From assembly GCF_964355755.1 (NCBI RefSeq), contig NC_092679.1, positions 23,684,432 to 23,748,431 of the forward strand: 64,000 bases of DNA, written 5' to 3'. Below are positions 17,278-48,522 of the stretch, piece after piece (position 1 is the first letter of the stretch; each line of letters begins with the position of its first letter). The notes under the pieces are model-generated. The model was not told where the DNA came from. It did no database searches and was given only the letters and a program-made list of their open reading frames with translations. Position numbers and translations under genes: made by a program. The stretch is from Antedon mediterranea (lineage: Eukaryota; Echinodermata; Crinoidea; Comatulida; Antedonidae).

Positions 17278-20200
17278 TTAAAGCTTGGCACATATTTCGA
17301 GCAACTGAAAAAAAAAGAATAACCATTTGACTGTAATTCCAGATCTTCCGAAAGCTACAAGTTGGTTTGATTCGACAAAGATTCGAATCAGATTATGTAA
17401 ATTTGAATACTTTTTTTTCATTCATTTAATTGAATTTTGACTTTTAAATCGTTTGTATACGAACTGTATTATACAAAAAATAATATAAATTAAATTCAGT
17501 GAAATACAAAACAACCAACCAACCTAAGAGAGCAGTAAACCTACTGTGTACAGTTCATTCCAAGTTTTATATAATTTAGATTTTGCAATGCATACTTTAG
17601 CACCAGTTATTGACTACTTTTGAACAGTCTACAGATATTATGTATATTTCTAATACATTCTATTGGAATTGTACAATGCCTAGGTTGTTTGATGCGTAAA
17701 TCATTAGTTATTCTAACACATTCTAAAGGAGTCATAGCCCTTCACTACATTGTACCTTTAATGCTATACATTATATTATTCATTATTAGTTTACTATTAC
17801 TTACGTCTTCAAGTGTAAATGTCAGAGATTTCTCATTTGTTCCACCGAGCTTCTCAAATTTTCCTGCATAATAAAAAGATGGTAGAATTTTGATGGATGA
17901 ATGTGGATGGATGGATGGATGATTGAAGGATGGATGGACGATTGAAGGATGGATGAGGATGGATGGATTGAAGGGATGAGGATGGATGATGAATAAATGA
18001 ATGGATGGATGGATGATGATGATGATAAGGATGGATGGATGGATGATGTATGATGATGGATGGATGATGATGTATATATGATGCTGGATGGATGATGATG
18101 TATGCACGATGATAGATGGATAATGATGTATGGATGATGATGGATGGATGATGATTGATGGATGATGATGGATGGATGATGATGGATGGATGAATGGAAG
18201 GGATGAGGATGGATGATGGATGGATGGATGATGAATGGATGGATGGATGGATGGATGATGATGGATGGATGGATGGTGAATGGATTATGGATGATGGATG
18301 GATGATGATGATGGATGGATGATGATGATGGATGTATGATGATAGATGGATGATGATGGATGGATGATAAATGGATGATGGATTATGGATTATAATGAAT
18401 TATGATGGATGATATTATGGACAATGATGGATGATGGATAATGATAGATGTATGATGATGGATGGATGATGAATGGATGATGATAATAAGGAATGATGGA
18501 TGATGATGAATAAAATGATGGATGATAATGGATATTGATTGATGGTAATAGACAATGATGGATGATGAGGATGATAATGATGATGGATGAATGATGATGT
18601 ATGGGTGATGGATTGATGAATGGATGAATAATGGAAGTTGATAATTAATTTCAATTAAAATCTATTGCAAACCAATCGTAATCATCTAGGATGGAGCTAG
18701 TAACACTGTTATGCGTGGGTAATTTGTGAATGACGTAGTACCTACACGAGCCTAGATAGGAAGATCTGTACTGTCGTTTATTGCGAGAGGAGAGGGAAGT
18801 CCGGTAATGTGGAATGACAATGTAACAAGCCAGAGATGAAATAAAATCACGAATAAATTTAGCTGATTGCCGTTGTGTTAGTCGTTGTCAGAAAAGTAAT
18901 GACCGACATAACATATATATTTCTCATGTGTAGTAGTGTTTCTTTGATTGAATAATTTTGTTTGTATTATAACAGCTCATTTTGGATTTTCAGTAAATTA
19001 TCTAACGGCAAAGTTAAGCTTACCAAATTCAACACTGTAACTAATCCCTCACTATTCAATTATTATATTATTATACTATAAAATGGATTGCGTCATACGA
19101 ACATTGATTGACAGTAAAACGTAACAAAGATACGTTCTAGTCTGGTTATTAGGTATCCATGCAGTGATGATGCGGAGGGTTATTTTTGTAGTGTTCTATT
19201 TAAAATAAATTTGTTTACAAAGAAATATTTTGGTTGTAAAAGTCGTTAAATTCGTTGACGTCAGCATTACTTCTTTTACGAATTTGAACAATTAAACTAC
19301 AAAAAATTCAACAATGAATGATGCATCGAAACTCTGTAACTAATCATGCCTTCACACATGAACTTTGCGTAAAAAGAAATTAAAAGACGAAATAAATATT
19401 CAATCCTTTTCCTTATGCATATTGCCAAAGCTAATAATTGATTTGTCCATAATGATTGCGTTTGCCGGGGGTTTTCCATAATTTAAGACCAAATCATAAT
19501 GGTACGTATAGTTTTGTATTCCGTGTAGTACCCTATTTATCTTCATTTTTGTACGTCCGTAAATATTAGGCCGAACTTTGAAATAACCGTGTTATAGCGT
19601 TAACAGAGCAAAGTTTGCTTAAATCCATCCATCAGATCAATTCCATCCATTTCATACATATCATCCCACCAATCGTAATCATCGATGGAGCTAGTAACAC
19701 TGTTATGCGTGGGTAATTTGTGAATGACTTAGTACATACACGGGCCTAGATAGGGAAGATCATGTAACTAGTAACACTGTTATGCGTGGGTAATTTGTGA
19801 ATGACTTAGTACATACACGGGCCTAGATAGGGAAGATCATGTAACTAGTAACACTGTTATGCGTGGGTAATTTGTGAATGACGTAGTACATACACGGGCC
19901 TAGATAGAGAAGATATGTACTGCCGTTCATTGCGAGAGGAGGAGGAAGTCCGGTAATGTGGAATGACAATGTAACAAGCCAGAGATGAAATAAAATCACG
20001 AATACATTTAGCTGATTGGCGTTGTGTTAGTCGTCGTCAGAAAAGTAATGACCGACATAACATATATATTTCTCATGTGTAGTAGAGTGTTTCTTTGATT
20101 GAATAATTTTGTTTGTATTATAACAGCAAGTTCATTTTGGATTTTCAGTAAATTGAAAAATCTGACGGCAAAGTTGTTAAGCTTACCAATAGTTGATTTA

Positions 20201-23200
20201 AATTCAACACTGTAACTAATCCCTCACTATTCAATTATTATATTATTATACTATAAAATGGAATGCGTCATACGGAAATGGATTGATAATAAAACGTAAC
20301 AAATATACGTTCTAGTCTGGTTATTAGGTATCCATGCAATGATGACGAGGAAGGTTATTTTTGTAGCGTTCCATTTAAAATAAATTTGTTTACAAAGAAA
20401 TATTTTGGTTGTGAAAGTCTTTAAAATCGTTGACGCCAACATTACTTCTTTTACGAATTTTAACAATTAAGCTAACTAAAAAACATTCAACAATGAATGA
20501 TGCCCTGCAAATCTGTAACTAATCATGCATTCACACATGAACTTTGCGTAAAAATAAAATTCATCGACGAACGAAATTAAATATATTCAATCCTTTTCTT
20601 TATGCATGTTGCCAAAGCTAATAATCGATTTCAAGTCCATAATTATTGCGTTTTGCCGGGGTTTTTCCATAATCTAAGGCCAATTTCTAGGCCAACTCAT
20701 AATTGTACGTATAGTTTTGTATTTCCGTGTAGTACCCTATTTATCTTCATTTTCGTACGTCCGTAAATATTAGGCCAAACTTTGAAATAACCGTGTTATA
20801 CCAGTAACAGAGCAAAGTTTGCTTAAAACTTAAAACTTATTGTGTGTGGGTATATATTACATGGGTTAATTTGCCTCTTTTGACCCGCAGTCAGAAGCCC
20901 AGAATGTTAATAAAGTTCATATTTGACCAATTTTGATGGATGGATGGATGGATAGATAGATAGATAGATAGATGGATGGATGGATAGATGGATGGATGGA
21001 TGGATGGATGGATGGATAGATGGATGGATAGATGATGATGGATGGATGATGAATGGATGATAATGGATTATTTTGACAATGATTGATTTTATTCGATATT
21101 CATAAATAGTTAAAATATACAATGTACATATTAAAAAAGAATATCAGGATAACCCATTAAGTCGACAAAAAAAAGTAAACTTATTTCCAATGGGGTCCAA
21201 TCCGTATAAACTGAAAAAGTGAGTGATAGGGCCTAGTACAATATATATGATTAAGTTGGACGCAGTTCATTTCATTTTCATTTTCATTTTACTGTTCCAC
21301 CTAAAATATGACAAGACAAAGAAAAAACAGAATTTAAAAAACCTGGGTAGTTATTTGTTTATGTGAGGAGACTCAAGTAAGCCAAAAAAGGCTTTAAGGC
21401 TGAGTTCCAAAATACATCAGTTAATATGGAAAAACAAGAAAAAACATATAAAACAAGATAACATAAAAAAACAATATTATAAAATAACTTAATTAAACTG
21501 AGATTCCAAGTTGTTCATTATTAAAATATTCTTTAAGTTTTATTTTGAAGGTTGCATTATTTTGTATTGATTTAAGTGAAATGACGAATGATAATGAATA
21601 TTGATGGATGATAATGTGGACAATGATGGATGATGAGGATGATCATGATTATGAGGATGATGGATGAATGATGATGGTTGGATGATTGATGGATGTATGA
21701 TGATGTATGATGATGAATGGATGGATATGATGTGTAAATGATGGATTGATGAATGGATGGATAATGGATGTTGATAATAATGGAGGAATGATGGATGATG
21801 TCGATGAGGTTGAGGTGGAGGATGATGAAGATGACGATGGTGAGGATTGATGAGTATGATGGGTGACGATGAGGAGGATTATGAATGTGGATGATGGAAA
21901 AGGATAGATAATGATGGATATTGATGATTGATGACGACGATGACGATAGTGAGATATCTGTATGGATGGCTAGGCTCAGAATCGAATCCAAGTAAGCAAG
22001 ATATCTGATTCACACGGGCACTCTGGATCTTACAGTGTTACAACGCTTTCACACGGAATGTAAACACAAACAAAGATACAGATATCGATGTTTCTACAAG
22101 GTATCCATTTGTTGTAAGATGTGTGTAAATGTGAATTTGTGTACAAAGAGTAAGAGTTTAAATAGGCTACTTACTGATAACGTAGCGAATCTTTGAAACC
22201 ATTAGGAAAAATTCGTCGTATGTAATCTTATTGTCGCTGCCAACGTATCGACTCACTAGGTGCTGCAATATGGTGTCACTGGTTTTAAGACCTGAAACAG
22301 GATCCGTTGAATAGTAAAAAAAAATGGTTCTTCGTTTGCATTTAATAAACTGTAAATATTGCATACTATTTAAATATATGTACGTTCAAGAGTGCCGTTT
22401 TAAAAAAGAATAGGCGTGTGCTCAAATAAATGTATATACAATCATTAGTCATGTCGTACGAAAGGGCATAATATCAAAGTCTTAATGAATGGATGTATCC
22501 AATTGGAGGGAGAGGACTCGGTGAAGTGACGGGAGTTTAAAATTATCACACTTCTACTATCTTACATACCTGCTCGTGACAATGCATCTCGTAACTCGCT
22601 CACATCAAGAGTTTTGCTTTTGTCCTTATCAGCTCGAAGAAACATCATCTGAAATCAGAAACAAAGCTAGCCATAAGCACGTAGGCCAAGGTCTAACGCG
22701 AAGCTAAGTTTTAATGGATGTAGCCATTTAAACTTGCCAACTAACTTTGTATTGGTAATGTTTTACAACAAAATGGAGTCAAATCCGTCTCATGTGCCAC
22801 TGAGTAATATTAAAATTGTGATGCTTATATTTCTTATTGAATTTGGGCAAAGTTTATTACTTTCGTGGCAACCCATTCGCGAGATCAGAGAATATAACAT
22901 TATTAGCATTAGTTCGAGAAAACTTATGATTGACTTATTTTTATGTAGACTGTTTGTAGAGTACAGCTCTTGTAAGTAAGATCATCATTTCCATAATTAT
23001 ACCGTACTCTCCGGATTGTTGATATTTATAAATTATATTGGGATTAGTTAGCCCATAAACGTACATAGTACGTCGCAGCCTGTGTTCAGGCGCGTGTTCC
23101 GGATTTAAAATGAATAGTAAAAAATGTAAAATATATTTGTTTGTCTCTTGAACGGTAAAAGTTTCAATTTATATAAGCGCCCAGTGAAGCAGAACGAAGG

Positions 23201-26200
23201 CTGTGAAATGAGGCCAGATTGCAAGTGCAGCTACGGCGATATGACACTGTGTTTACAGAATAGGAAATTCGTGAAATGGTCAATGTTCCGACGACTCGTT
23301 ATCATTAACCATATTAATTACTTTTGTGAAATTATACTTATCTAATGTAATTTTAGTCGGTCTTCCCATTTATAAAGTCAATTTTCTATGAAAATTCATC
23401 AAAACAGTGAAAAATTAGATATGTTTGCACTTTACGTTTGCCGATTTTCGCACTGACTTAGGGAAAGCCTTCAAAATCAATGAAGCGTAACGTATGCATT
23501 CCTGCTGAGCGAGGAGAGCGAGACGACGATACACGTGCTCTACCTGCCCATGCCTGGCATGTCACGTGATAAGCAGATACAGTATACAATACCAAACTGG
23601 TCGGGTCGAGTATACCCCGTCTATAATCACAACATGAACGATGTACAGTATTTGGTTGAAGGTCGACTCGACCTACCGGAATGGTATAGATAATATAGCT
23701 CGAATGAGAGAGTTGGAATATTTGTAAACATAAGTATATTGCTAATTTTAACAAGCCTATAATACTTTATTAAAAGGCCTGGTAGTATCAATTCGCATAT
23801 AGGGTCTACTACACTAGCTAGCTCAATTTTTAACTGGGCCGAATCGGCTAGGTCTCCTTCCTACTACCTGGTCTACTTGCTTGATGCAGTATCTGCTTTT
23901 TTGGAGAGTAAACTAGGCCTATTTTAGGCCTACTTTTAGACGATCGAGACACCATACGTGCGGACGGCGATCGTACCTTTTTTGCCTCAATATTTACAGC
24001 CGATTTTGTAGAATGTTTTAGGTTTAGATTGTTTAGGAGTTTGGTTGATAGGATAGGTTTGGAATCCACCGAGTTTTATTATTATGGGCCAATCGTTTAG
24101 TAGGCTAGCTAGGCCCATGATGGGCCCCAATGTTTTAACGTAGCCATCGTGGCATGGAATCCCTAGTCAGAATGGCTCTCACCCATGAAAACAAATGATT
24201 TAGGCTAGGCCTAGCCTAGTACGTGAAGCCGATAAAACGATCTGTACGATTCGAGGTATAAAAATAGTATATAATTTAAGACTCCGTAATCTTTACTAAT
24301 TGTTGTATTTATGTCAAATAAATATATGCTACTACTGTTATTATTACACTTTAGGCCTAGCTTAGAAAATCTACAAAAAATGTATTTCACAATGATCGGG
24401 TGGTTGTCGTTTGACAGGGGAGAGAGATTTGAAGTTAACAAACACAACGTACATGACGTCGCGAGTTTGGAATCCACTGATGACGTGATTTTGTGAATAT
24501 CTCATGAATGTTAATGAGCTTCCCTAAGCTGCTGAAAAACAGACTTTCCATGAATTTACCCTAAAATGTATATGAAATTAATTTTTTTTTATTTCTCGTT
24601 ATTACTTCTTCATTCTGACATGTCTATATTGTTATGATATTTTTTATTTAATTTTTTAAATAAATAAACGATATTTAAAAGCAATTTTAAACCCAGAATC
24701 CCCCTTTAAGGGGTTCGAGGGTTAGGTGTTCTCTCCCGTGTTGCGACGTTGCCCTAGGCGTACGTCATTTCGCCAGCCCATTGGCTAGGCCTTGTTTTAT
24801 GTGTGGATGCGTTCGACCGCATCGTGTTGCGGACAGCCGGAGTTGAGGGCGCTGTCATTTTAATAATTTATTGTTGATAAGTTAGCTCTGTATCTTGAGT
24901 GAGTTTGAGGCTGTCTTGAGGGCGCTCTTTGCGCTTAATTGTAATTGTTGTTTTGTCATTTATTACAGTTTACCGTATTATTCCGTATCGTACATCGGAT
25001 GCAGTTTTACAATATCGGCGTTTGTGTATCGATCGTCGTAAAGTATCGGCGTGAATAAATGCTGTTCAATAACTGAGATTGTGTGACACGAGTATTCTTA
25101 CGGTTATCTATTTGAATAGCGAGGCAGAGATACGCTTCACGAGGTCAGAACAAAAATGAATATGATTTTTTGTACAAAATCAAATGTTGTCAATATAGTA
25201 GGCTCCTACTTCCTTTGTTTGCTTGTTTTTTTTAAGTTATCGTCCTGTACAATTGTGGACGTTAATAGGTATCATGCATATCAAGAAAATTGATATATTG
25301 GTGACTTCACAATTTCACAAAAGCTTATTATATTGAAATCTCCAGTTACCCGAATTTTTAAATAGTCCGCCCTGTCGCTCTACATGTATCTGTATCTATT
25401 ATTAGTCGCGTGCAACGCGACTCTACAGCTCACTATGTTGGTCGGTTGGTCGGTCGGTCGGTAAACACTTGAGCACGCGACTGCAGCCATGTATATGGCC
25501 TTGTTATATTAATTATTGGTACTTACGTCACAGTAAAATGACCATGCTCCAATAGCAATGCCTTCATTGACAGAAAGTTTCCGAGAATCGTCTTCCTATA
25601 GTTTTAAGCTTAAGGAATTTAGACAAAAAAACTTGCACTTCTTACCGTATACCATTAATAGATCTTATAGATCTAAGTCTCCATCATCCGCTTTATTGAC
25701 AAACAGGAAGGGTAGCATACACTTTTTGGCGCTCTCAATTTTATTTATTTCTAGAGACAATATACCTGTATACTCTCATCTTTGGATGATATGTTAACTC
25801 GTAAAATCTGTTAACCATTTTGATAGAGCATGAATTTCTTCCGATATGATGATGGTAGACGATGATAGTGCCTCCTTTGGTTACAGGGAAGCCTGATCCG
25901 AATCATCCCAGTTTCCTATTTTACATTTCAAATATTTTTGGAAAACTTTTTTAACAAAAGGATACGTCAAACAGTGAGGCAATAGCTGCCGACGTCTCAT
26001 GTGATATGTCAGAAGGAATGATATCTATAAAAAATAATATTTTTTATTACATTATTATTACATTATTATTATCTAGACATAGATGATCTTTAGAAACTGT
26101 TGAATATAATTATGCCAAATATGACTTTACTTTAAATGTTGCAAAATACACAATAAAGAATTTATTGTGTATAATAGTATACATAATAAAGAATTTATTG

Positions 26201-29200
26201 TGGCGGCGTACTGAGACATATAACATACTTTCTTGTTTCCAACGTACAAAGAAGTTATCCAGTCCTGAGTTGTCCACCAACCCGTCCTGTAAGATGTAAT
26301 TGGGTTTAACTGTTTACGACTGGAATGCATTATACCGCATGAATACAGCAGTAAGGGAGGCTACAGCACTTACAGTTTAAAAGAGAAAAAATTCCGAAGA
26401 ATTTAGAATGTTCTTTCACTCTCACAATGTTTTCTCTTCATACCATTTATCAAATTGCCTAACATTTGCATATCAACAGCATTAAAGCATATTTGTTGTG
26501 TTCTCTGCTTCAAGGATGTAGTGCTTTGTAAATGATTATATTTTATATAACAATAAAACAGTTAGTTAGTGACATGATTAAGTGGATTATGCCACTACTG
26601 ACTTACCTCTCCAGCATATTCTTCAAAGACTGATTGAATGATTTCAACCATCATTGGGTCAAGCGTTTTATTCTAAAATAAAGTAAAAAAATGTATGTCT
26701 ATAATTACAATCTAATATAGCAACAATGCTGCTGCTGTGATTGGTGGGTTCCTCTTCTTGTGTTTTGCCTTTGTTTCTGTTTGTTTGTCAGAATACTGGG
26801 TTCTCTGGGAAAACAGTCTTTAACTAAAGAGCTCCCCAGTAAAAAGAAGAAATAAATAAAAGAAAAATAAAGACATGTTGAATTATACAACTACAAGTAT
26901 TCACGGATGTTACTGTTTTGTATAGTATTATGACCACCAATGCATTTGGCCGTTTTGTAAACCTGATGTGTATTCTTCAATTGTATATAGGCAAATACCA
27001 TAATTTGTATAATAGATCATAGACAAATTCTTAAAAACATGCTAATGTTTTACTCTAATTTTTACTGAATTGAAAATAATAAATGTAACGAACATGATTG
27101 TGATACGGTATCACGAAACTTTCCTAATGCTCAGTCTACACTATCAAACTAGTTTGACAACAAAGTGTGATGTGACCAAATATGATATCATTATATCCAT
27201 TTATGTGCACATCACATTTGTTTTTGTCAAATAAAGCTTGATAGTGCAGATAAAGCTTAACACAAAAGACACAAATACTTTTTAGAATACACCTACCTCT
27301 GATAACGTTGAAGTGTAAAACGATGTGCTGTTTGCCGATCTAAAAAAATATGAATACTCAAATCAAGCTAGATTTTTTTTAGGTTTCCGTTATAAATGCA
27401 TTTACGGATATAGAAACTACCAAAATACTGTACATAATTGTGAACTATTTCTTGTAGATATGCAAAAAATCTGTAGACCATTAATTTTGTAGATTATTAC
27501 AAATTACATTGATGTTTTAGTTAATAATGAGTACAATACCGTATACTTACTTGGTCTTTGAAAAAGCTCTGCAAAAGAAACGCAAAAGGAACGGATATTC
27601 TTTGTCCTTTTCAAACGTTGAAGGAATGATGACGTAATTACCCGGACCAAGATCCATGAACAGAGCAGCTTCTCGTATTCCTCGTTTGTGTTCAAATGAG
27701 TGTAGTGGTTTGCTTGCTTGTATGAACTCCATATCCACTGGACATCCATTTTCTGTCTGTGAGTTAAAAACTATTAGTGTAACTAATAATAAAGAGGGTA
27801 CAACAACAGAATATTACGAAGAAAAAAATTAGAAGATGTATAAAAAATGGAAAAGAATGAATGAATAAAGGTGTTAACCACGAAAGATTTAAAAAAAATT
27901 GTAATTGTAACTATTTTAATTTTTTGCTATTTAATCTGAATATTGCTTTCTGTAGCGCTTTGACCATATTTGGTGGAAAAGTGACCACAAGTATTTAATG
28001 TTCATCTGAAACATGCTCCAGCTGAAACAGTACAATTCCGGCACTAGTAAAGGCCAACCAATTTCATTGATCTACCTAGTTTCTCACATTTTGGATTTCC
28101 AGTAATTAACCTAAAGGTATTTATGTAGTTAAAGGATCTCAATGGAAATAAGATAATACGCCTTTTGGGATATCCTGGAAAGTATGTCATAAATGTGTTT
28201 ATTTGTAACTTATGTTATCACTTTGTATGTATGATTATAATTTCCTGATAAATACAAATCAAATCATGTTGGTAATGTCAAAACAATGAATGAATATTAA
28301 TCAAAATGGTGTGTCACGATCAAATTAATTCGTGAATCATTAAAACTAAATTCAGTAACTATTTTTAAGACAATTTAGAAAAAAATTACTTTGTACATAT
28401 CAAACCCGAGATCAGAGTCTTCCCACCCGGATTCTTCTCTGTCTTTGCCAACTGCCATCAGAGAGACAACCACTAAATCACCATTATTGTCAACTTGTAT
28501 GTTGTACTGGGGGTTCTTGTGGAAATCTAAGGAAAGAGAGTGCAGTAGTATAATTTGCTTGTTACACACGAAACACAATCATGCAGGGCACTTTGAAGAA
28601 CTCATCTGTTTTTAGAAGATAACAATCGTAGAAGATTTTTTTTAATTTCCATTTTTAATGGTTTAGTTAGATTGTAAATTGAAACGAATTTAAGAAGATG
28701 TGATTTCGCGCTAGAGAGTGAGTCAACCGCTAATTGTAGGCCTACGGTTTGATGAAGATGTAATTTTTTGAAAATGTAATTGCACACCAGAGATCCTTGG
28801 GTAATGCCCAACTATTGGAGGAGATGAAATTACATAGAGGTGAGTTTCTTTGTAATTTTACTACCAATTTTTTGATATTGTATCTTTTTATTTGTTGCAT
28901 ACTTTCTTTATTATTTTCATAACGTCCCATAGCAGTTGAACCTTTTTGCCATTTATTCAAATGTTCAGTCACGTGCCATTTCACATCTTTGTCAGACAGC
29001 TCTGGTGGGATGTGAAGAATTCTCAGCTCGTTGAATCTGTGCAGGATGTCTTTGAGAACCATCCTTAAATAAATGAAGCAAATGAATTTTTTAATGCGCT
29101 GTTAAAATATTGGGGATGAGGTCAATATAATCATGGTCGCATGCGTCTAAATTTTAATTCTCAGTCGGCACGGTTAGTGCCATAGACAATAATTGGTTTC

Positions 29201-32200
29201 TATTGCGTGTGCTCGGTCCGTGCGACAAATCCACTATCTTGTTTTCTATTCGTTTGCCAATACAAAGCATTACATAGACGCACGGTCAACCGAGCCGATG
29301 GATATAATGATATAGCACGACCGATAGTCTATTCCTAGTTTAGCTTCGGTTGAGTACAGTGGCTCACTTACCAGAAATCACCATCGAGCTCACTTTTTAT
29401 ACCAAACTTTTTCATGGTATCTTTATCCAAAGATTTCATTTCTTCTGACCTAAGATGTTAATGTAAATTGTTACGTTGTAATATGAATTGTTTTCGTTCA
29501 TAAACAAAAAAATTAATAAAATTAATTGTACCTGACGTAACTTTATGACGATAACTCGTAACGAAAACTAGACGGTACAATAGTAGGCCTAAACTATTCC
29601 AAAAGGGACTAAAAAAGAGATTTTTTAATTATGCAAACAACCAAAGGTTTGTATGTAGGCCTCTCTTGTGAGCAATATATTTCTTACTTGTCACCCCATG
29701 GTCCAGTCCATTCACAGCGTTCTGTGCTTAGAATTCTGATGATACTTGCAGAGTTCATTTTACCATTGTTGTCATACGTTACCTAAAAGTTCACAATAAG
29801 ATAAGAAATGAAAGGATTTTTGACTTATCGGTGTTGTAATATACAACTAATAAATAAATTATGACAACAAAAAAACAATTTCATGAGGTGAAAGATGAAA
29901 GCATATATTTTCAGAAGGCGAATGAAATTATTTTGATATATTGAACGAACATTATTTGTTTATAACAGACCATTCAAAATGAGACAACGTTCACATTTTT
30001 AACATTGAAATAGAACAATTAGGCGGCGCACACAGCCATATAATAATAATTGATCGAACGTGATCAGTCAACAACAGCCTGTGGGTGCACTGTGGAACTA
30101 AAATGAACGCGCAAAACGAAATGCAGTAGCCGCATAATAATATAACGAAATCGCACTCTCGATTACGAAATTAGAAGTTAAATAGAATATTATTATTTAT
30201 CTTTCAATCAAATTAAAATGGTCGATACGTTCTTATTGCATCATTATGATATCTATTGCTGCGTTGTATGATTGAAAACAGGAACACATCAAAATACCTA
30301 GGTAGCTTTAAATAAAACGTTATTTGAAATCATTGAAGTTACCAAATCTTGTAATTGAAAGTTGAGTTAAATGTAGAATTAACATATATCGTATTAAAAA
30401 GACGTGTAAAGGTTAATACAAAAGTTAATGTAAATTATAAACCCACGTGTTTTACACTTCCAGATAGAATGTACATGCTCTGTAGTTGAAGACCGCACAA
30501 ATCAAGATTCTCGTCATTTAAAAGGCCGGTCACAAGAGATCCAGTTTTTCTCCACATCATCAACTTGGAACGAAGTATAGCCTCTGTGAAGTCAGACATA
30601 TCTACTCTCTCAACAGTACCACCAGATAGATCAATCAAAGCTTCAGGGATATCAAATGTACAATCCATCGCCTCGTAACGTAATAAAAGCCTTCATTATA
30701 AAACAAAAACAAAATATGTTGTTTGTTTGTTAGTTTGTTAATAGGATGGATAGTCAGCAGTGTCCTTTTCACTCGAGCTACTGTGAAAACTACTCAGTTC
30801 TCATAATATGAGAGCTTTTCAAAGTGCTGGAGAATGGAGCAGTGACAAGGGTTTTCCTGCGCTATCTTCAGATTGAATTTTGTTATTTTAAGAATGTTTC
30901 TCTTTGTTGGTGTAAACTATTTGTATTAGGTGCTATAAGACTATCATTATCAAATTAGCAAACTACTATTCTGTTCCCCTTAAAAAGCACGATCCATGTC
31001 AACATGTATGAGCATGGATACAATTATTCATGGTAGACCTAGTTTCCCAAAAGCTTAATTTTGATTTAAGGAGTGTAAGTTGAGATGGAATTGAAGTTTT
31101 GAAGAATATACGGTAATTTTGATTATAACTGTACCCTTAGGCTTCACAACGTTGTTTCTAAAATCTAAAGTAGTTACACGTTTTGATACTGCAGAAGTTG
31201 GAATATGCATTGTCTTTGGTAGAGGGAGGTAATCATGATAAAAATGATCATAAACAGATACGATTCTTTTCAAAGTGTTTAAGCATTTAGGACTTTATTA
31301 TTTTATCTCGGGTATTGTTGTGATGGTGACTTGCAGTAAAAGTGTAAAAGAACACTTACTTTGCCAATGCCTTTTCCATGAGAGGAGCCCAGAATTCATC
31401 TTTTGATTGGCAGTGACTGAACATCAGTTTACCATCCAGTGTTGGCAGTTGATCGTCAATGACAATTTCATACCAGGATCCAAATCTCCAAAATCTGAAT
31501 CTAAAGATGCCTTTATAGTCGTCTTTGAACGACTGTTCTGGACAGACGTAGTTGAGTACGGACGGAACAAGCGTCATCCCTGCCAATGCATTCATGAATG
31601 ACGCGTTTGCTGTAGGAAAATTGAGTGAACTCAAACGTTACAGTGTAGTTTGTTGCAAAGCGTTTCGCCTCCATTGCCTATTAATTGTAAAAGAACTTTA
31701 TACTGAATTTATAAATTAAAGACGCCAAAGTCTTACCAAGGCCCTCGTCTCTGGCTAAAATAACCTCATTAAAGGATGCTCCATCTTTAAAAAAGAAGGG
31801 TTCCTGCTTGCCTTCTAAGATTTCCTAAGAGAAAACACGGTTTTGTCAGTTTATTTTTGGATGGAATCCAAATGTTAGGCCTAGTTAAAAGGCAGCAGAT
31901 TGAAATTTTCTAGCTAGCTTCTATGCCCTAGGCCGTTGCAAATAAACATTGTGTGGGTTCCATGGAGTAGTTACTTCCATATAGTTACCGCCTTAATAAA
32001 TTATGGCGAATAATATTGCATACCCATGAATATGCCTAGTACAATTGATAATGTTAGTTATTGTAAGTAGTACTATTTATATTGAATAGAAACGCTTACT
32101 TTTGGACGTAGCCACCTGATGTCATTTCGCCTCTCGTATAAGTCAAACAAATATGTATCTTCTTTAATGAATATAGACTCGTTACATGCCTTAAAACATG

Positions 32201-32297
32201 GATCTTTGAATAGGTTGTCCCTATTGTACTGACTATCTTCTATCAGATCGGCGTAGTTTTGGCCACAAATTGTGTTTAATTTGATGGACTTAGCCAT
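17278..32297 (-). CDS. calpain-like pseudoprotease, gene 1 (18 exons, 677 aa)
   Basis: Exons in order of transcription: 32297-32100, 31824-31737, 31609-31360, 30690-30447, 29782-29688, 29449-29372, 29063-28903, 28526-28390, 27756-27551, 27339-27297, 26672-26607, 26286-26229, 26024-25966, 25595-25527, 22648-22570, 22291-22175, 17863-17805 and 17304-17278. All have AG acceptors and GT donors and compatible phases; the 2034 nt stay open from ATG to TAA. Domains: CysPc about 40-310 ([36 protein letters not shown]), CBSW about 318-465 ([14 protein letters not shown]) and PEF about 501-677 with two good EF loops ([12 protein letters not shown] and [12 protein letters not shown]). The length is normal for classical calpains, which are cytosolic Ca2+-dependent cysteine proteases. 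Here Cys is Ala98, His aligns to Ser257 and Asn to Ser279, so a non-catalytic role is inferred. The short last exon (LLEICAKL-stop) and the donor of exon 13 are the least certain parts. Confidence 0.88.
17884..18640. repeat. (GATG)n/(GGAT)n simple-repeat tract in intron 16 of gene 1
   Basis: About 750 bp of irregular gatggatggatgatgatg. It begins immediately 5' (in + coordinates) of the conserved sequence beside exon 17. Genes 2 and 3 have a shorter version at the same place (36287-36580 and 50868-51160). Open frames full of HPS-type repeats on the minus strand are translations of this tract. Confidence 0.95.
18655..20830. repeat. tandemly duplicated block of about 1.0-1.1 kb within intron 16 of gene 1
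   Basis: The sequence from about 18668 (ccaatcgtaatcat) to about 19625 (gcaaagtttgctta) is repeated at about 19668-20825 with small indels. Inside the second copy a 77-bp unit beginning ctagtaacactgttatgcg is present three times, at 19691, 19768 and 19845. No coding sequence is evident. The block is absent from the corresponding intron of genes 2 and 3. Confidence 0.85.
20936..21072. repeat. (GGAT)n/(AGAT)n microsatellite in intron 16
   Basis: A nearly pure ggatggatggat tract with a gatagatagata section, in the gene 1 intron. Confidence 0.95.
21073..21579. other. intronic sequence with no recognised feature
   Basis: An AT-rich intron 16 segment. At 21260-21540 there is a stretch with words such as tttcattttcattttca and aaggctttaaggctgag that may be an old LINE 3' end, but no coding piece is left to confirm this. 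Confidence 0.3.
21580..21930. repeat. (GATG)n-like degenerate repeat in intron 16
   Basis: A degenerate gatgatggatgatgaggatg tract, followed by unique sequence (gcaagatatctgattcacac) shared with genes 2 and 3 on the exon 16 side. Confidence 0.9.
22818..25153. repeat. about 2.3-kb sequence present only in intron 14 of gene 1
   Basis: Genes 2 and 3 read gagtaatattaaaatgaata continuously (near 37450 and 52030). In gene 1 the same sequence is split, with about 2.3 kb between attaaaat at 22817 and aaaatgaatatg at 25154. The extra DNA has no host-like exon. At its right end (about 24725-25145) it has a GC-richer segment with an aataaa signal that resembles a solo LTR. It is either an insertion in gene 1 or a deletion in the ancestor of genes 2 and 3. 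Confidence 0.6.
24725..25145 (+). mobile_element. possible solo LTR
   Basis: A segment starting tgttctctcccgtg carries repeated gagggcgct words and an AATAAA at about 25053. It has tgtgacacgagtattcttac near its end. The composition and the order promoter-like, poly(A) signal, short tail resemble a Gypsy-type LTR. No second LTR, primer-binding site or target-site duplication was identified, so the call is weak. Confidence 0.3.
25402..25500 (-). repeat. short dispersed element with gtcgcgtgc ends (copy 2)
   Basis: A reverse-complement copy of the 1575-1680 element, with a longer ggtcggtcggtc tract. Its end forms the hairpin agtcgcgtgcaacgcgact. It lies in intron 14 of calpain gene 1, close to exon 14. 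Confidence 0.6.
27129..27256. mobile_element. MITE-like inverted-repeat element in intron 10 (gene 1)
   Basis: The left end tctacactatcaaactagtt, then tttgacaa and gtgtgatgtg, is complementary to the right end cacatcacatttgtttttgt, then gcttgatagtgcaga. Inverted repeats of about 45 bp flank a centre of about 35 bp. Copies at 41710-41837 and 56291-56418 are carried by the tandem units and are not independent insertions. Confidence 0.65.
29161..29300. repeat. imperfect inverted repeat in intron 6
   Basis: tgctcggtccgtgcg at 29210-29224 is nearly complementary to cgcacggtcaaccgagc at about 29279-29295. This is a possible small MITE between calpain exons 6 and 7, copied in the other units at +14581 and +29162. 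Confidence 0.35.
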
Positions 32298-32421
32298 GTC
32301 TCAATAGACTTATAATCCAAAATGAATCGTAATATCAGATGAGAGCAGCTTTAATACTGAACAAACCACCACATCATTACAATAAAAGCTATTGTATTTT
32401 CATTGGGTTATTATGATTGTG

Positions 32422-32429
32422 TGACGTCA
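32422..32429 (-). promoter_or_regulatory. CRE palindrome (and CCAAT) upstream of calpain exon 1, gene 1
   Basis: A perfect TGACGTCA lies about 125 bp upstream of the exon 1 ATG. A CCAAT (minus strand, 32402-32406) lies just beyond it, and a TATTAAAG-like word is nearer the ATG. This would make an ordinary promoter for a transcript starting directly before MAKSIK. Identical copies are at 47003-47010 and 61584-61591. Function is inferred from motifs only. Confidence 0.4.
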
Positions 32430-33759
32430 AACAATAAGTTCAATTTTAATGGTACATCATAAGCAGTAACTTATATATGTAACCAATATACCGTAAGAAA
32501 AGACATATTGGAATTTAATTATGGAATAACAATAGTACTGCATATTATCATTAGGGGCAGTTTAAAGAGATTATTCTAAGGATAGCAATTTTCTATAACG
32601 CTACCATTTGTGTGTGTACTGTAAATTTAGATTTATTTTTATTACAAAATAAAAAGGTTTTCAATTTAACATATGCATTTAATTGTTATGTATTTATGCT
32701 CCCTGAATACGCTTTTATGGCAATAATATTTAATTGTTTATCTTCGTTCTTTAAAAAATGTACTGATAGTAATTGCAGTTAGTCCCATCGGAAACCAGCT
32801 TGCGATTTCAATACATACATTATTGAAAAAAATTAATGTTCAAAAATATTCTGTAAAATTACGTCATAGTTGGGCAAATGTCTTATCTTGCTTAACAATC
32901 TACAATTAGGTTTATCCAATTCGACATTTTAATATAATGCCGCTTTTGAATAATTCTATATGCATAACTTGTATTTATACATTTTGTAAACTTGAACTCC
33001 AGCCTAGTGAAACACGCAAAAATGTATAATTATCTTTCTAAGGGAGATAATGAGGTAGATATACTCTAATAGTATATTGTGTGTCGTGTATGTTTGAAGA
33101 TGTAGGCATATAGTGTAGGACTTGTAACAACGAGGCAATGTAACTGTCAAAGAAGGATGAGTCTATTGGCGGTATCTACAAAAGAAGAAACAAGATGTTT
33201 GATACCCGCGATATCTAATCTTATTATGATCTCTCCTTATTATTTTGGACAAGACTAATTCCAGATTTAAGTAGTCGTCCTACCATTGTTTTAAATGATG
33301 TCTTCGTGTTTTGTTTGATCAACTGAAATAAGAATTCTGTTCCGTCATAACCGTATGTGATGCATGAAGATAAATGTAATTTTTCGGTTGACTTATGGAA
33401 TTATATATACGAATGGTTTGATCGAAATTGCTATTGAATAAATTGAAAGAACGCTCATCATTTTTACCACCTTAGTTACCACAAAGGACTGCCTGAATAA
33501 TATCATAGGAAAATATATAATATCTCTATGGTAATATCGATTTAAATATTAACAAAATATTGAACTAATTCTAGTAAGTAGTAGTAATCTAGTAAGTGAA
33601 ATATTTTTAAATATTATAAAATCTTGGTTTGTTTATTTACCTATTGTTATTATTTTTTCGTCTTGTTATTGTTAAATATATAATGCAGGTTATTGTGTTC
33701 CAAATCATAAACAGACGGAGCATGCGCTCTCTCGAGGGTTTGCTGAAAAAAAGGTCAAA

Positions 33760-33830
33760 GTTCAATTCAATTCAATTCAAGAAACATTTATTGACCAACA
33801 ATATTATATCATAACAATGGTTGGCATATA
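33760..33830 (-). mobile_element. short LINE 3'-end remnant with (TTGAA)n tail
   Basis: gttcaattcaattcaattca followed by agaaacatttattgacca matches the 3' end of the intron 11 LINE (38768: attcaattcaattcaattc followed by aaagcaacatttattttc). It looks like the last tens of bases of a severely 5'-truncated LINE copy on the minus strand. It sits next to the signal-peptide exon. Confidence 0.5.
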
Positions 33831-33883
33831 ATATATATAGTCGAGAGACTACAAAAGACAAACATTTTTTAAATGAGAGTCAC

Positions 33884-33941
33884 CTGAACAGCTAGAAAGC
33901 GGCAAAACGGCCAATATCACAAGGATTTGAAAGATGAACAT
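33884..33941 (-). CDS. signal-peptide-like exon upstream of calpain gene 1
   Basis: ATG at 33941 encodes MFIFQILVILAVLPLSSCS plus one base, then a GTGACT donor at 33883. The peptide is a credible cleavable secretion signal (hydrophobic core, then SSCS). A conserved TATA box lies about 90 bp upstream. The exon ends in phase 1. The next minus-strand feature is calpain exon 1, 1.6 kb away. Splicing to the AG just before ACATGGCT (32299) would read S-D-M-A-K-S-I-K in frame. It could therefore be an alternative first exon giving a signal-bearing calpain, or the start of an unrecognised separate gene. I see no other convincing exon in between. Confidence 0.45.
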
Positions 33942-34030
33942 CTTTTTACACAATTCTGTATAAACGCTAAACTTTACCTCCGACAGTTCGTACTGTGTCT
34001 GGTTAACGTTAATATAGCATGTTTTGTTGG

Positions 34031-34037
34031 CTTTATA
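34031..34037 (-). promoter_or_regulatory. TATA box upstream of the signal-peptide exon
   Basis: TATAAAG on the minus strand. About 35-50 bp further upstream is a conserved block, gcgtaattgacc-atcacactg. Copies 2 and 3 have CCAATCA there, but this copy has CCTATCA. The diverged copy at 16916-16922 keeps the TATA box. Confidence 0.5.
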
Positions 34038-34194
34038 ACATACCTGATTGTATTCTTGCAGTGTGATAGGTCAATTACGCATCATGTGTTATTTAGCTTT
34101 TTGTAAGTATTTTGAGCATTTTGCCCGTCGACGTTTTTGACTCTGATCGAATTCGAACATCAACTTGTTGTGCACGCCGTCTATAACGGCTCAA

Positions 34195-35460
34195 CTCAGC
34201 GTCCAAAGTTGAATGGCCTAGCTTCCCGAACTAGCATTCGTCAATGATTTACATTGAATATAGGCCTAAGTAGGTGTGTTATAAAATAAATAGTGCATTT
34301 TTTTATTTGGTCAACGGCGGATCTGGTCAATTTCGCCTAGATAAAATTTGAGTCGTCAGTTTTTCAACTCATGAATTATTTTCACCATCAAACTCATAAA
34401 CAAGCTCTCCTATGATTGCCACATCTGCTTTATTCTGCTTTATCTGCATCACTTTTACAAAACATTCCCAATTATTGAGTTATAACTCAACGTGTTCAAC
34501 CTTTTTTTTTGTACAAGAGTACTTTATGAATATGATTGAATGTCAGAATAACAATTATTTTCAAGACATCATCTGAGAAAGAAGTTATGCGATTGGAAAA
34601 ACTTCATGCCGTAATTGCTAAATGAATTGTCAAATTCAGCTTATCCTCAGAGACCTAGATCAATTTATGAACGCATTTTACTTACAGATATTTTTACCAT
34701 TGCGTGAATTTTAGTTATTTAGATAAATCACATATAAATGATATTTGTTTTATATTTCAAGCATTATGATATAGAACTTAGAAAGTTGATGGATGTCATA
34801 TACCTCTATGATAAAATTAATTGAAAAACCATCCTAAATTAAATTGTCGCTTGTGATTGGTTAACTTGAGTCACGCAAAGCTTTTTTACCGATTTCCAAT
34901 ACAAAACTATTATACCATTGTTATTATTAGTGACGATTGACGTGTCCTGAAGTGTACCAAGAAGGCAAAAAAAAAAAACAACAGGCATACCACTCCATTG
35001 CAAATGGTATGGCCAAGTGGTGATCTGACGGTGAGTTATAAATTGTGTTACTTTAACGAGTTATTACATTAGACTATAAAGTTGTTGCTCTTAGTTAAGT
35101 CAATCCACACCCTGAATGCATAAAACAATAGAAATTTGACAAGTTTTTGTTCCATAGAATAATCATTTATGCTGTCTTTGATAAAAATGATTTTTTTTTA
35201 ATCCAATCCAATGACTTCATGATAAATAAAAACAATAAAATCGTTGTAGTCAAGATATTATTACTCTTACTAATCATGACGTCATTTGATTGGACGTGTG
35301 AAAATATCATTTTCATCAAAGACAACATAGATGCTTATCCTATAGTTATAGGATGAAAATTTATAAAATTCTCATTTGTTTCAGGTATGAAAAATGCATA
35401 TTTATCAATTTATCGTCGATCGTTGTCGTTCTAGTGTGTGAATGAGCATTAGGTCTACCC
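34195..35460. other. intergenic segment missing from the 3' flank of gene 1
   Basis: The flank of gene 1 (17041-17070) goes directly from gccgtctattaacggct to attatttaaagtgtttattt. Here the equivalent sites are about 1.27 kb apart. The extra sequence is AT-rich and shows no coding or clear transposon ends. A palindrome-like ttgagttataactcaa lies at about 34475-34490. Confidence 0.5.
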
Positions 35461-35673
35461 TTACCGGTTATTAAGTGTTTATTTGTAGACGTGCACTATA
35501 CCGTATATCGATCAGATTAGTAGTGTTATAGTTTTAATAGTAGTTGTTGTAATACTCGCTGCACTTGGTTACGCCAGTAGTTCAGTACATAAGATGTAGA
35601 ATTAAAATAAAAACTATGCTATATTTATTTATATATTCTGGTGTCTTAAACTTGCTGTTACTTCTTTCCGAGA

Positions 35674-38600
35674 TTAAAGCTTGGCACATATTTCGAGCAA
35701 CTGAAAAAAAAAATAAACATTTAACTGTACTTCCAGATCTTCCGAAAGCTACAGGTTAGTTTGATTCGACAAATATTCGAATAAGATTGTTTTCATTCAT
35801 TTCATTAAATTTTTAATCGTTTGTATAGGCCATCGAACTGTATTACTGTAAAATTTACGGTTATTAATTTGGAAAATGTAAGTACATTAACAAAAAAAAC
35901 TTTAAAATTTAACAGTTTTTTACAGGGTAAACCTACTGTACAGTTCATTCCAAGTTTTATATAATTAATTTAGATTTTGCAATGCATATACTTTAACACC
36001 AGATATTGACTACCTTTGAAACGACTATCTATAAGAATACATGTGTAAATTTATTTCTAATATTTTATTAAAAGTGTACACGTTATTGCTTAAAAAACCC
36101 CCAAACAACTATGCCTGTTTGAGAGCAATGCGTAAAGTATTAGTAATTATAAAGAACTTTAGAACCATTATATTATTCATTATTAGTCTAATATTACTTA
36201 CGTCTTCAAGTGTAAATTCCAGAGATTTCTCATTTGTTCCACCAAGCTTTTCAAATTTTCCTGCATAGTAAAAATATGGTAGAATTTTGATGGATGAATG
36301 AGGATGGATGATGATGACGATGAGGAGGATGATGGATGGAATGATGATGAGGATGATGATGATAATTAATGGGTGATGGATGAATGATGATGGGTGGATG
36401 ATTTATGGATGGATAATTGATGAAAGATGATGACGACGAAGAGGAAGATGATTAGAGAATTTGGTGCTTAGGATGATGAATGATGAGGATGATAGGTAAA
36501 AATTGATGAGGATGATGGATCAGGATGATGGATGTTGGTGGACGATGATTGATGATGATGATGATGATGACGAGATATAATGTAGGCCACTGGCAGAGTT
36601 CGTGCTTGATGGCTATGGCTTAGAGTCGAACCCAGGTAAGCAAGATATCTGATTCACACGGGCACTCTGGATCTTACAGTGTTACAACGCTTTTACACGG
36701 AATGTAAACACATTGTAAGATGTGTATAAAATGTGAATTTGTGTACAAAGAATAAGAGTTTGAATAGGCTACTTACTGATAACGTAGCGAATCTTTGAAA
36801 CCATTAGGAAAAATTTGTCGTATGTAATCTTATTATCACTGCCAACGTACCGGCTCACTAGGTGCTGCAGTACAGCGTCACTGGTTTTAAGACCTGAAAC
36901 AGAATCCGTTGAATAGTTTAAAAAATGGTTCTTCGTTTGCATTTAATAAACTGTAAATATTGCATAGTATTTAAATATATATGTACGTTCAAGACTGCCG
37001 CTTTTAAAAAAAGGCGTGTGTTCAAATAAATGTATATACAATAGTCATGTCGTACGAAAGGCATATCAAAGTCTTAATGAATGGTTGTATCCAATTAGAG
37101 GTTGAGGACTCGGTGATGAAGTGACGGGACGGGAGTTTAAAAAACCCGCGGCGCTCCTACCCACTGGTCACTACCGTAGATACCTGCTCGTGACAATGCA
37201 TCTCGTAACTCGCTCACATCAAGAGTTTTGCTTTCGTCCTTATCAGCTCGAAGAAACATCATCTGAAATCAGAAACTAAGTCTAAACATTTAGACGATGC
37301 GCTAGCCATAATCACGTAGGCCTAAGGTCTAAAGCGAAGCTAAGTTCGAATGGATGTAGCCATTTAAACTTGCCAACTTTGTATTGGTAATGTTTTACAA
37401 CAAAATGGAGTTGACTCAGTCAAATCCGTCTCATATGCCACTGAGTAATATTAAAATGAATATGATTTTTTACTTGGCGAAATAAAATGTTGTCAATTAT
37501 AGTAGGCATCTACTTGCTTTGTTTGCCTGTTTATTTGTACGATATTGTTTAAGTTATTGTCCTGTATAATTGTTGACGTTAATAGATATCATACCTATTA
37601 GGAAAATTGATATATTGGTAAATTATTATATTGATAAATCATTATATTGATATCTCCAGTTACCCGTATCTTAGCCGAAATATTTAATAGCCTGCCCTCT
37701 GTCGCTCTACATTTTGCCAAGTGTTGTATTTCGCTGTATCTATTATTATATTAGTTATTGGTACTTACATCACAGTAAAATGACCATGCTCCAATAGCAA
37801 TGCCTTCATTGACAGAAAGTTTCCGAGAATCGTCTTCCTATAGTTTTAAGCTTAAGGAATTTAGACAAAAAACTTGCACTTCTTTACCGTATACCATCAA
37901 TAGATCTTATAGATCTAGGCCTAAGTCTCCATCCATGTTCAGTTCAAGATAAAATAATTCATTATTGACATGACCAGAAACATACAGGAAGGGTAGCATA
38001 CACTTTTTGGCGCTCTCAATGTTATTTATTTCTAGAGACAATATGTTAAATCGTGAAATATGTTAACCATTTTGATCAGAGCATGAATTTCTTCCCATTT
38101 GATGATGGTAGACGATGATGGTGCCCACATTGGTTACAGGGAAGCCTGATCCGAATCATCCCAGTTTCTTATTTTACATTTCAAATATTTTTGGAAAACT
38201 TTTTTAACAAAAGGATACGTCAAACAGTGAGGCAATAGCTGCCGACGTCTCATGTGATATATCAGAAGGAATGATATCTATAAGAAATAATATTTTTTAT
38301 TACATTACAATTTATTATTATTATCTAGACATAGACAGATGATCATTAGAAACTGTCGAATATAATTATGCCAAATATGACTTCACTTTAAATGTTACAT
38401 AATACATAATAAAGAATTTATTGTGGTGGCGTACTGAGACATATAACATACTTTCTTGTTTCCAACGTACAAAGAAGTTATCCAGTTCTGAGTTGTCCAT
38501 CAACCCGTCCTGTAAGATGTAATTGGGTTTAACTGTTTACGGCTGGAATACTGCATGAACACAGCATCTTCATACCATTTATAAAATTTGCTAACATTTA

Positions 38601-41600
38601 CGTATCATTTTTTTATAATGTCTATCTTACAACTTTATTAAATCATACTTGATTTGTGGAACCCTTTCTCTGCTTTCAAGATGTAATGCTTTGTAAATGT
38701 TTATATTTTATATAACAATAAATCAATTTAAAGCCAGAGTTAATGGATCTAAGGCAAATTAATATTCAATTCAATTCAATTCAAAGCAACATTTATTTTC
38801 TCCTTTCATATACAAAATAGATTTCAGTGATCAATAAATATGTAAACAAAATTCGAAAGAAGAAGGTACACGCCCAGAAAGATGAAAAACACATCTTGTG
38901 GAGGACGTACCTATTACAGACACAGACAATGAAAATTTATAAAATAAAAAAAATATAAAAATAAAAAAAAAAATAAATAAAAAATTGACCGAGGAAAAGT
39001 TAATATTTGGCAATAAGGTGACTTTTAAGTTTAGATAAAAATGATTTACTAGAAAGAGAGTTTAAGATGGGGAGTGGCAGATCGTTCCAAAAAGTGGGTC
39101 CGGAATACCTAATGTTGTGTTGAAAGTGGTTGGTTTTATGGGTTGGAATATGTAATTTTGAACAAATACGGGTATTATGATAATGAATTGAAGAATTTGG
39201 AGTGAACATGGAGCACAGATGTTTGGGAAGGTTGGAATTAATAGAAGAAAAGATGAACGAGCCTTGTTGGGTTAGATTGATATCGGAGACTTTGAGAAGA
39301 TTAAGCTTTGAAAAAAGATGAGATGAATGAGACAGGGGTGGGGCGCCAGATATAACCCTGATGGCCTTTTTTTGAAGAGTTTGAAGTTTTTTAATACTGG
39401 AAGGATAAGAGTTGCACCAGACAATATTGCAATAGTTAAGATAAGGCAGGATGAGGGAGCAGTACAGGATACGAAGAATGTTAGGGGGTGAAAAAGAAGA
39501 AAGTCTAGTGATGATGCCAAGACTTTTTGAAATTTTATTCTCAACAAAATTGATGTGATTTTTTCCATGAAAGTCGACTGTCAAGATGAACTCCTTAAAA
39601 TGTAGCAGATTGGACTGAGGGAATATCATGATTGTTAATAGAAATGTTATAGTTTGCAGTATCAATGTTTTTAATTTTCTGAGGGGTTCCAAACAGGATG
39701 AAGTTACATTTTTTTGTGGTTAAGAGAAAGTTTGTTAGCTGAAAAGTATTGAGACATGAGGGTCAGATTGGTATTAACAGTATTAAATAAGGTTTGAATA
39801 TCAGGGTCAGAGTAATAAACAGTGGTGTCGTCAGCATATAGAAAAAAATTAAGAATTGCAGAAGAAAGATATATATCATTAATATATAGAATAAATAGGA
39901 GGGGGCCAAGAAGAGAGCCCTGGGGAACACCACAAGTAACAGGGTTGAAGTTGGAGACAGAATTAGAATACTTGGTACATTGGAAACGATTGGTAAGGTA
40001 ACTTTTGAAAAGATCATATGCGGGCCCTCTAATTCCATAGTGGGATAGTTTAAATAAAACTATGTTGTGGTCTATTGTATCGAATGCCTTTGACAAATCT
40101 ATAAAAACGCCGATGGCTAGATGGCCACTTTCAAATGCGTCAACAATTTTGTTTGTTAAGTCAATGAGAGCCATGGGTGTGTTGTGACCTTTTCTAAAGC
40201 CATATTGATTTTTGTGAAGAATGTTTTGAGATAAATGAAAATGTACGATCGTAGATTACCCTTTCTAAAGCTTTAGAGAAAATAGAGAGGACAGAGATGG
40301 GGCGATAGTTAGAGAAATCAGATTTGTTTCCAGATTTGTAGATAGGGGTAACGCGCGCAAACTTCATCCTGTCTGGGAAAACACCCTTTAATAAAGCAAG
40401 ATTAAAAATATGGGTAAGTGGAAAAGAAATGAGATCGGCAATATGTTTGATGGGCTTGGTTTGGAAATCATCAATACCGGGTGATTTGTTGTTTTTAAAG
40501 GTAGAAATGATTTTAAAAACTTCGGCCTCATTGACTGGAGTAAAGAATATTGAGTTAGGGGTAGGGTTGGGTAAAAAGTCTTTAAATGATCTGTTACTAT
40601 TGGGAATTTTATTAGCAAGTGAAGGGCCGATTTCAGAAAAATATTTGTTAAAGGCATTTGAAATTATATTGGAATCATTAGTCAACTCACCTTGAAAATT
40701 GAAAGTATTTGTATGTGTATTATTTGATTTATTGAGCAGGGAATTAATTGATTTCCAAGTTGCCTTAATATCATTTTTGTGTTTGAGAAACGTTTTGTGA
40801 AAATGATTTTTTTTTGCAGCTTTAATTGTAGTATTTAATTTATTACGGAATTGTTTAAAGGCTGTTTCATTTTTTTGGGTGGGACAATGGATAAATTTAG
40901 AGTACAGTTTATGTTTGTGTTTAATTGAATTAAGTAGGCCATTAGACATCCATGACTTTAATTTATTATTTTTTTTTTCGTTTTTGAGGAGAGGAAAGTG
41001 TTTATCATATATTGATTTTAATATAAGTTCAAAGTGTGAATAAGCCTTATTTGGGTCATCAGTGTTAATAACATCAGTCCAATGTTGGGTGGAAATTTCA
41101 AGACGAAAGTTTGCCAGTGAAGTAAGGTTAAATTTTCTAAAAGTATAGTTTTTATTTGGCATTCCTTATGCCACTACTGACTTACCTCTCCAGCATATTC
41201 TTCAAAGACTGATTGAATGATTTCAACCATCATTGGGTCAAGCGTTTTATTCTAAAATAAAGTAAAACATTGTATATCTATATAATTACGATCTAGTATA
41301 GCAACAATGCTGCTGCTGTGATTGGTGGGTTCCTCTTCTTGTGTTTTATTTTTGTTTCTGTTTATTTGTCTGAATACAGGGTTCTCTGGGAGAACAGTCT
41401 TTAACTAAAGAGGTCCCCAGTAAAAAGAAGAAATAAATAAAAGAAAAATAAAGACATGTTGAATTATACAACTACAAGTATTCACGGATGTTACTGTTTT
41501 GTATAGTATTATGACCACCAATGCATTTGGCCGTTTTGTAAACCTGATGTGTATTCTTCAATTGTATATAGGCAAATACCATAATTTGTATAATAGATCA

Positions 41601-46878: not shown

Positions 46879-47002
46879 GTCTCAATAGACTTATAATCCA
46901 AAATGAATCGTAATATCAGATGAGAGCAGCTTTAATACTGAACAAACCACCACATCATTACAATAAAAGCTATTGTATTTTCATTGGGTTATTATGATTG
47001 TG

Positions 47003-47010
47003 TGACGTCA
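47003..47010 (-). promoter_or_regulatory. CRE palindrome upstream of calpain exon 1, gene 2
   Basis: TGACGTCA, about 125 bp upstream of the ATG at 46878, with the same surroundings as in gene 1. Confidence 0.4.
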
Positions 47011-48464: not shown

Positions 48465-48522
48465 CTGAACAGCTAGAAAGCGGCAAAACGGCCAATATCA
48501 CAAGGATTTGAAAGATGAACAT
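48465..48522 (-). CDS. signal-peptide-like exon upstream of calpain gene 2
   Basis: Identical to the 33884-33941 exon: start, 19 hydrophobic residues, phase-1 GT donor. The TATA box is at 48612-48618 and the upstream block has a CCAATCA (minus strand). Confidence 0.45.

Follow-up and report, generated by a model that had tools for sequence, protein, structure and literature searches.

Triad-less calpain genes in a tandem array of the crinoid Antedon mediterranea

What may a calpain gene be kept for when the residues that make its product a protease are gone? The question is raised by a stretch of 64,000 bases of DNA from Antedon mediterranea (C10:23684432-23748431 in a genome of 354 Mb on 18 contigs), which we call the window and from whose first base positions are counted in the following. 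A preliminary description, made from the letters of the window, had reported a tandem array of calpain genes in which all three catalytic residues appeared to be replaced. It had proposed for their products the role of a calcium-dependent scaffold, a decoy or a calpastatin-like regulator of active calpains. The array of triad-less calpains was confirmed by our analysis, while the interpretation as a whole is supported in part.

Structure and copy number of the calpain array

The window carries three calpain genes, A, B and C, which are all encoded on the minus strand and repeat with a period of 14,581 bp. Gene models were built by hand and by iteration with a custom spliced protein-to-DNA aligner, such that the joining of exons is modelled from spliced alignment and is not transcript-based. 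The models are open over 655 (A), 654 (B) and 654 (C) codons, with no frameshift and no in-frame stop. Copy B occupies positions 36193-46878 (exons from 46878-46681 down to 36260-36193) and copy C positions 50774-61459 (exons from 61459-61262 down to 50841-50774).

In copy A the exons were placed by spliced alignment unless stated otherwise. Exon 1 (32100-32297) encodes the N-terminus, and exon 2 (31737-31824) the loop preceding the catalytic position. Exons 3 to 5, located by alignment, provide the PC1 core with the motif ANASF (31360-31609) and most of the PC2 part discussed below (30447-30690 and 29688-29782); they make up the span 29688-31609 to which the preliminary description had referred. 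PC2 ends in exon 6 (29372-29449). Exon 7 (28903-29063) holds the end of the CysPc domain and the start of the CBSW domain, which continues through exon 8 (28390-28526) and ends in exon 9 (27551-27756). After a short linker exon (27297-27339) the PEF domain starts with exon 11 (26607-26672) and extends over exons at 26229-26286 (first EF region), 25966-26024, 25527-25595 and 22570-22648 (each with an EF loop), 22187-22291 and 17793-17863. The latter is the last resolved PEF exon, and the modelled 3' end is provisional; by eye, a GTAAGT-like donor coincides with the final codons of the models. A GATG-type microsatellite (17892-18635) adjoins this exon.

To connect exon 9 with the first PEF exon, the aligner had to insert a one-base bridge in A as well as in B and in the further members D and E. 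The linker exon, which was chosen among several candidates for its phase common to A, D and E, measures 43 nt in A and D and 46 nt in E and adds 14 residues. It would resolve the bridge. A matching linker-like stretch was found by eye in member F, and copy C needed the same bridge as the other members of the A-E group. The exon junctions match among the four members compared (A, D, E and F). The 677 open codons claimed earlier hold as far as the open frame is concerned; their number is plausible, given 655 codons, the 14-residue linker and an incomplete 3' end, and was not reproduced.

The domains CysPc, CBSW and PEF, previously described as intact, are indeed present. A draft of copy A with 505 residues matched the Pfam model Peptidase_C2 with an E-value of 5.9e-58 (196.7 bits, cut-off 23.8), which places it in the calpain family, and Calpain_III with 1.1e-17 (65 bits, cut-off 21). 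Among solved structures its best matches were calpains 1 and 2 (up to 4.7e-62). PEF exons occur in all six models A-F, giving, with the modelled joining of exons, the order CysPc-CBSW-PEF of a classical calpain. PEF domains bind calcium and pair. The draft PEF segment matched the PEF domains of calpain, sorcin and grancalcin in the PDB and scored above the Pfam cut-offs of EF-hand_7, EF-hand_6 and EF-hand_1, which are overlapping models covering one EF pair. By eye three EF loops carry the usual calcium ligands; the good EF loops reported before were thus found, three instead of two. An AlphaFold prediction of exon 3 alone, supplied with five paralog exons, reached a mean pLDDT of 53.8, too low for use.

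How much weight do three copies carry? Across 26833-41180, where the 14,581-bp unit is nearly identical between copies, 3 positions distinguish A from B; across 41181-49000, B and C show 5 differences, and their models differ in one residue. The edges of the repeat unit lie inside the genes, and copy A therefore has 5' exons in common with the others and a more diverged 3' half (A-B dS of 0.094 in the PEF part versus 0 over the first 484 codons). That three copies keep the triad-less state is correct, but their near-identity makes them count as about one observation rather than three independent ones. It may reflect recent duplication or partly be a matter of the assembly.

A LINE sits in a PEF intron of B and C (in B between 41186 and 38509) and is absent from A and D. 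Reading frames of LINEs, named by eye as reverse-transcriptase type, lie at 39000-41165 and 53581-55746 on the minus strand, where they occupy this PEF intron in B and in C, and at 10475-12976 on the plus strand. The window further contains a 106-bp satellite in two arrays of opposite orientation (1-1486 and 3358-4929) with other repeats in between; the listed arms of these arrays are 95-97% complementary.

Loss of the catalytic residues

Elsewhere on this chromosome, outside the window, another three members with open frames and no triad were found, namely D, E and F, with identities to A of 92%, 76% and 60%. Given their location they support the finding independently of A-C. Copy D lies just past the window (65365-74561 in window coordinates). 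Its 5' part is diverged and its PEF part agrees with that of B and C in 99.4% of residues, so that D counts as an independent member for the 5' part alone. All six members are open over 651-656 codons without stop or frameshift.

The catalytic positions were read from an alignment of A-F with calpain-1, calpain-2 and five paralogs from the same genome, using CAPN2 numbering. At the Cys105 position A to F carry Ala, Ala, Ala, Ser, Ala and Gly, at the His262 position Ser, Ser, Ser, Ser, Thr and Gly, and at the Asn286 position Ser throughout. None of these three residues of an active protease is thus kept in any of the six, and the claim that the whole triad is replaced across the array holds. 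The surroundings have changed as well: Gln99 of the oxyanion site is Leu or Val, Trp106 is Ser or Ala, and Trp288 is deleted in all six. In copy A the replacements of Cys and Asn are those previously given, Ala98 (31604-31602, exon 3) and Ser279 (29728-29726, exon 5, where Trp288 is deleted). The His replacement, formerly assigned to Ser257 within GSVKHVT, has to be moved 7 residues upstream to Ser250 (30479-30477, exon 4), because the GHAYTITG of the active paralog G aligns with QSMYILSG. By either alignment His is absent. In HMMER pairwise alignments the gaps in this stretch differ by target, with no His there in any of them, which makes Ser250 the most likely equivalent of His262.

An alternative exon bearing the triad was considered as a candidate and rejected on the basis of a six-frame motif scan of 93,568 bases (the window plus 29.6 kb), a scan blind to motifs interrupted by an intron. 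Over this range the Asn motif gave no hit in unsplit form. The His motif gave one hit at 77254 on the plus strand, opposite to the genes. The Cys motif gave four hits, all of them GSCF beside stops, three of which represent one intronic spot per copy. Within the window, the Peptidase_C2 search returned only three exon-3 matches among those listed. A different exon carrying Cys, His and Asn, whose use in a transcript the preliminary description had named as the finding that would overturn it, was accordingly not encountered among unsplit motifs.

Could the proteins still cut with other catalytic residues, or with residues at another place? According to the available text of a review, activity is in some cases retained when the triad is altered. 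In copy D the Cys position is taken by Ser, and the loop before this position is longer and divergent in the family, which would leave room for a relocated nucleophile. Against this stand Ser, Thr or Gly at the His262 position, Ser at the Asn286 position and the missing oxyanion Gln in all six members, and we regard residual proteolysis of this kind as highly improbable.

Since the change from Asn to Ser and the deletion of Trp288 are common to all six, the losses most simply predate their split. A common ancestor of A-F would then already have lacked the triad, together with the oxyanion Gln and the Trp that follows Asn, and the Cys and His positions would have drifted afterwards.

Relatives in the genome and selective constraint

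The Peptidase_C2 search gave 25 exon matches that resolve into twelve genes, namely the six members A-F and another six, G to L. The latter all keep Cys, His and Asn, with the Cys of L aligned weakly; L is CAPN7-like and its Cys exon was taken from a second stretch. A whole-genome protein search with F yielded at least 57 exon matches, which we assign to A-F, to four other calpain genes or to one scrap, and among the matches listed there was no further full-length member.

This scrap is a 116-nt piece at about C10:3741117-3741232 that is 96.6% identical to the coding sequence of E. It crosses the junction of exons 7 and 8 without the intron that is present in E, as would be expected if a spliced transcript of the E type had once been reverse-transcribed. 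The piece is likely a retrocopy of E; it is short, and derives from E and not from the copies in the window.

A PEF domain together with a triad was found in G and, with a weaker score, in H, while the stretches of K that were inspected contained no convincing PEF. The boundaries of the PEF exons are, by eye, common to G and the triad-less family. The family may act as a dominant-negative or regulatory partner that tunes activity, either by PEF pairing with the active calpains G or H or by competing for substrates. All six models contain PEF exons, and with G and H two candidate partners are at hand. Pairing of calpains is mediated by the fifth EF-hand. This very element is the least resolved in our models, which tells against the proposal, and we hold it to be rather unlikely.

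For a phylogenetic placement, A, D, E and F were combined with six mammalian calpains and with the five genes G to K of the genome. The four formed a single clade on a long stem (UFBoot 100; internal supports 81 and 82). Gene I, which is CAPN5-like with an intact triad, paired with CAPN5 (support 94). In this tree, which did not include CAPN6, the family fell outside the pair of CAPN5 and gene I, and it has a PEF domain, which CAPN6 lacks to our knowledge; a CAPN6-like placement was thus not obtained. These results bear on the idea that the proteins stabilise the cytoskeleton like mammalian CAPN6, mainly via CBSW. The CBSW is conserved, and CAPN6, itself without the active-site Cys, binds microtubules through this domain, as the available text on it states. 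Given the difference in the PEF domain and the separate CAPN5-like gene, we judge such a role improbable.

Are the genes maintained or are they decaying? Between diverged members the NG86 estimates of dN/dS were 0.371 (A-D), 0.391 (B-D), 0.408 (C-D), 0.247 (A-E) and 0.227 (D-E); for pairs with F synonymous sites are saturated. Values near 1, which together with inactivating mutations in other individuals had been named beforehand as speaking against the preliminary description, were therefore not seen (range 0.23-0.41). Replacements were fewer than neutrally expected in four comparisons (p of 9e-27 for A-E, 3e-30 for D-E and 5e-6 for A-D). Among A, D, E and F, 343 of 660 alignment columns are invariant, with the Cys and His columns belonging to the variable remainder. 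For PC2 alone, dN/dS of A, B or C versus D amounted to 0.52-0.65. The higher values in the pairs with D indicate that the recent copies may be relaxed.

One could take the genes as tandem duplicates on the way to becoming pseudogenes. The lost triad, the very recent origin of the copies and the raised dN/dS in pairs with D fit such a course, to which we nevertheless give hardly any credence in view of six open frames, dN/dS well below 1 over deep splits and a conserved exon structure. Judged from these substitution patterns, the constraint on the triad-less family is real.

Along A and D the identity is patchy. Exons 1-9 are 94% identical (1368/1454), compared to 84% of aligned positions for introns 1-8 (2281/2714 of 4757 columns). 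The lowest identity among these exons is that of exon 2 (65/85, 76%), which lies just before the lost Cys, with exons 3-9 at 92-99%. Introns 4, 5, 6 and 8 are 90-94% identical (introns 4-6 91-94%), slightly below the exons, and introns 1-3 only 56-74%, such that introns 1-3 and 7 account for most of the contrast between exons and introns. Together with the similarity of the D PEF to that of B and C, this pattern points to gene conversion or unequal exchange in some stretches of the genes.

Calcium sites and possible function

The core of a calpain changes its conformation with calcium, as stated in the available text of PMC3315469, and the available part of PMC4631099 assigns I89, G91, D96 and E175 to site 1 and E292, D299, Q319 and E323 to site 2. 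All six members keep G91, E175, E292 and D299, and all show the conservative exchanges D96E and E323D. I89 is Lys throughout. Q319 varies across A-F and likewise among the active paralogs. D321, presumably a calcium ligand as well, is kept in all six. The loss of the catalytic residues with retention of the acidic ligands is the main clue to function. The retained ligand positions lend indirect support to a Ca2+-dependent role, and their retention may alternatively reflect fold stability.

We consider it probable that A-F form an old, constrained and catalytically dead family of classical calpains which would serve as calcium-responsive binding or scaffold proteins without proteolysis. They retain a papain-like core with most of its calcium-ligand positions, as well as the CBSW and penta-EF-hand domains. 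Ca2+ would rearrange the core and the PEF contacts, and the rearranged protein would bind a partner that stays uncut, be it a calpain substrate, the cytoskeleton or an active calpain. The loss of activity, the binding of Ca2+ and the partner are all steps that we infer from the sequences.

By this assignment A-F are pseudoproteases, a kind that is already known. That non-catalytic calpains exist had been pointed out before, correctly, but they are commoner in print than was implied: the available text of one survey counts 337 non-peptidase calpains among 3795 homologues, and that of Joyce 2012 (PMC3315469) 344 calpain-like proteins without at least one of the residues. According to the accessible part of Rawlings 2015 (PMC4631099), calpamodulin, androglobin and CLP-3 have other residues in place of both Cys and His; by its wording Asn is apparently unconserved as well in non-peptidase homologues. 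With these precedents, at the detail given there, whole-triad loss is not itself new. Our family resembles calpamodulin/CAPN6, androglobin, C. elegans CLP-3 and Drosophila CalpC in combining a calpain fold with replaced active-site residues. It differs from them, as far as their descriptions go, in being a set of six PEF-bearing members in one genome, three of them in a near-identical array, and in that Gln99 and Trp288 are also gone while most calcium-ligand positions are kept. Trypanosomatid calpain-like proteins, for which we know of no PEF, are alike in their incomplete triads and have other domain plans. The available text on them describes whole families of this kind, with proposed structural roles.

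Classical family C is another group of classical calpains with lost catalytic residues that is similar by description only. The available text of Hastings 2017 (PMC5650170) reports such losses in Drosophila, Daphnia and Branchiostoma members, low support for the clade (36) and an intact triad in its lophotrochozoan members. Mammalian CAPN6 is a comparable case of a non-proteolytic calpain with a physiological role, in muscle according to the available part of PMC3731218. Human CAPN6 has Lys at the Cys position, where A-F have Ala, Ser or Gly. We found no description of a six-member triad-less set in the literature searched, outside of which most subscription papers and supplements lie. As inactive calpains have already been described, the surprise is limited.

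Dead and live calpain genes are equally numerous in this genome (six of each found). The dead ones may act as calcium-switched regulatory subunits, which capture or shield the substrates of active calpains by PEF pairing with them; we think this unlikely. If true, a core with calcium-ligand positions would open and close on Ca2+, freed of catalysis.

Under the favoured reading of a calcium-responsive binding or scaffold protein, calcium sensing would be naturally split from catalysis, offering a clean test of what a non-cutting calpain core does. The six paralogs, being of differing age, would provide a series for what stays conserved in a calpain after the loss of its triad.
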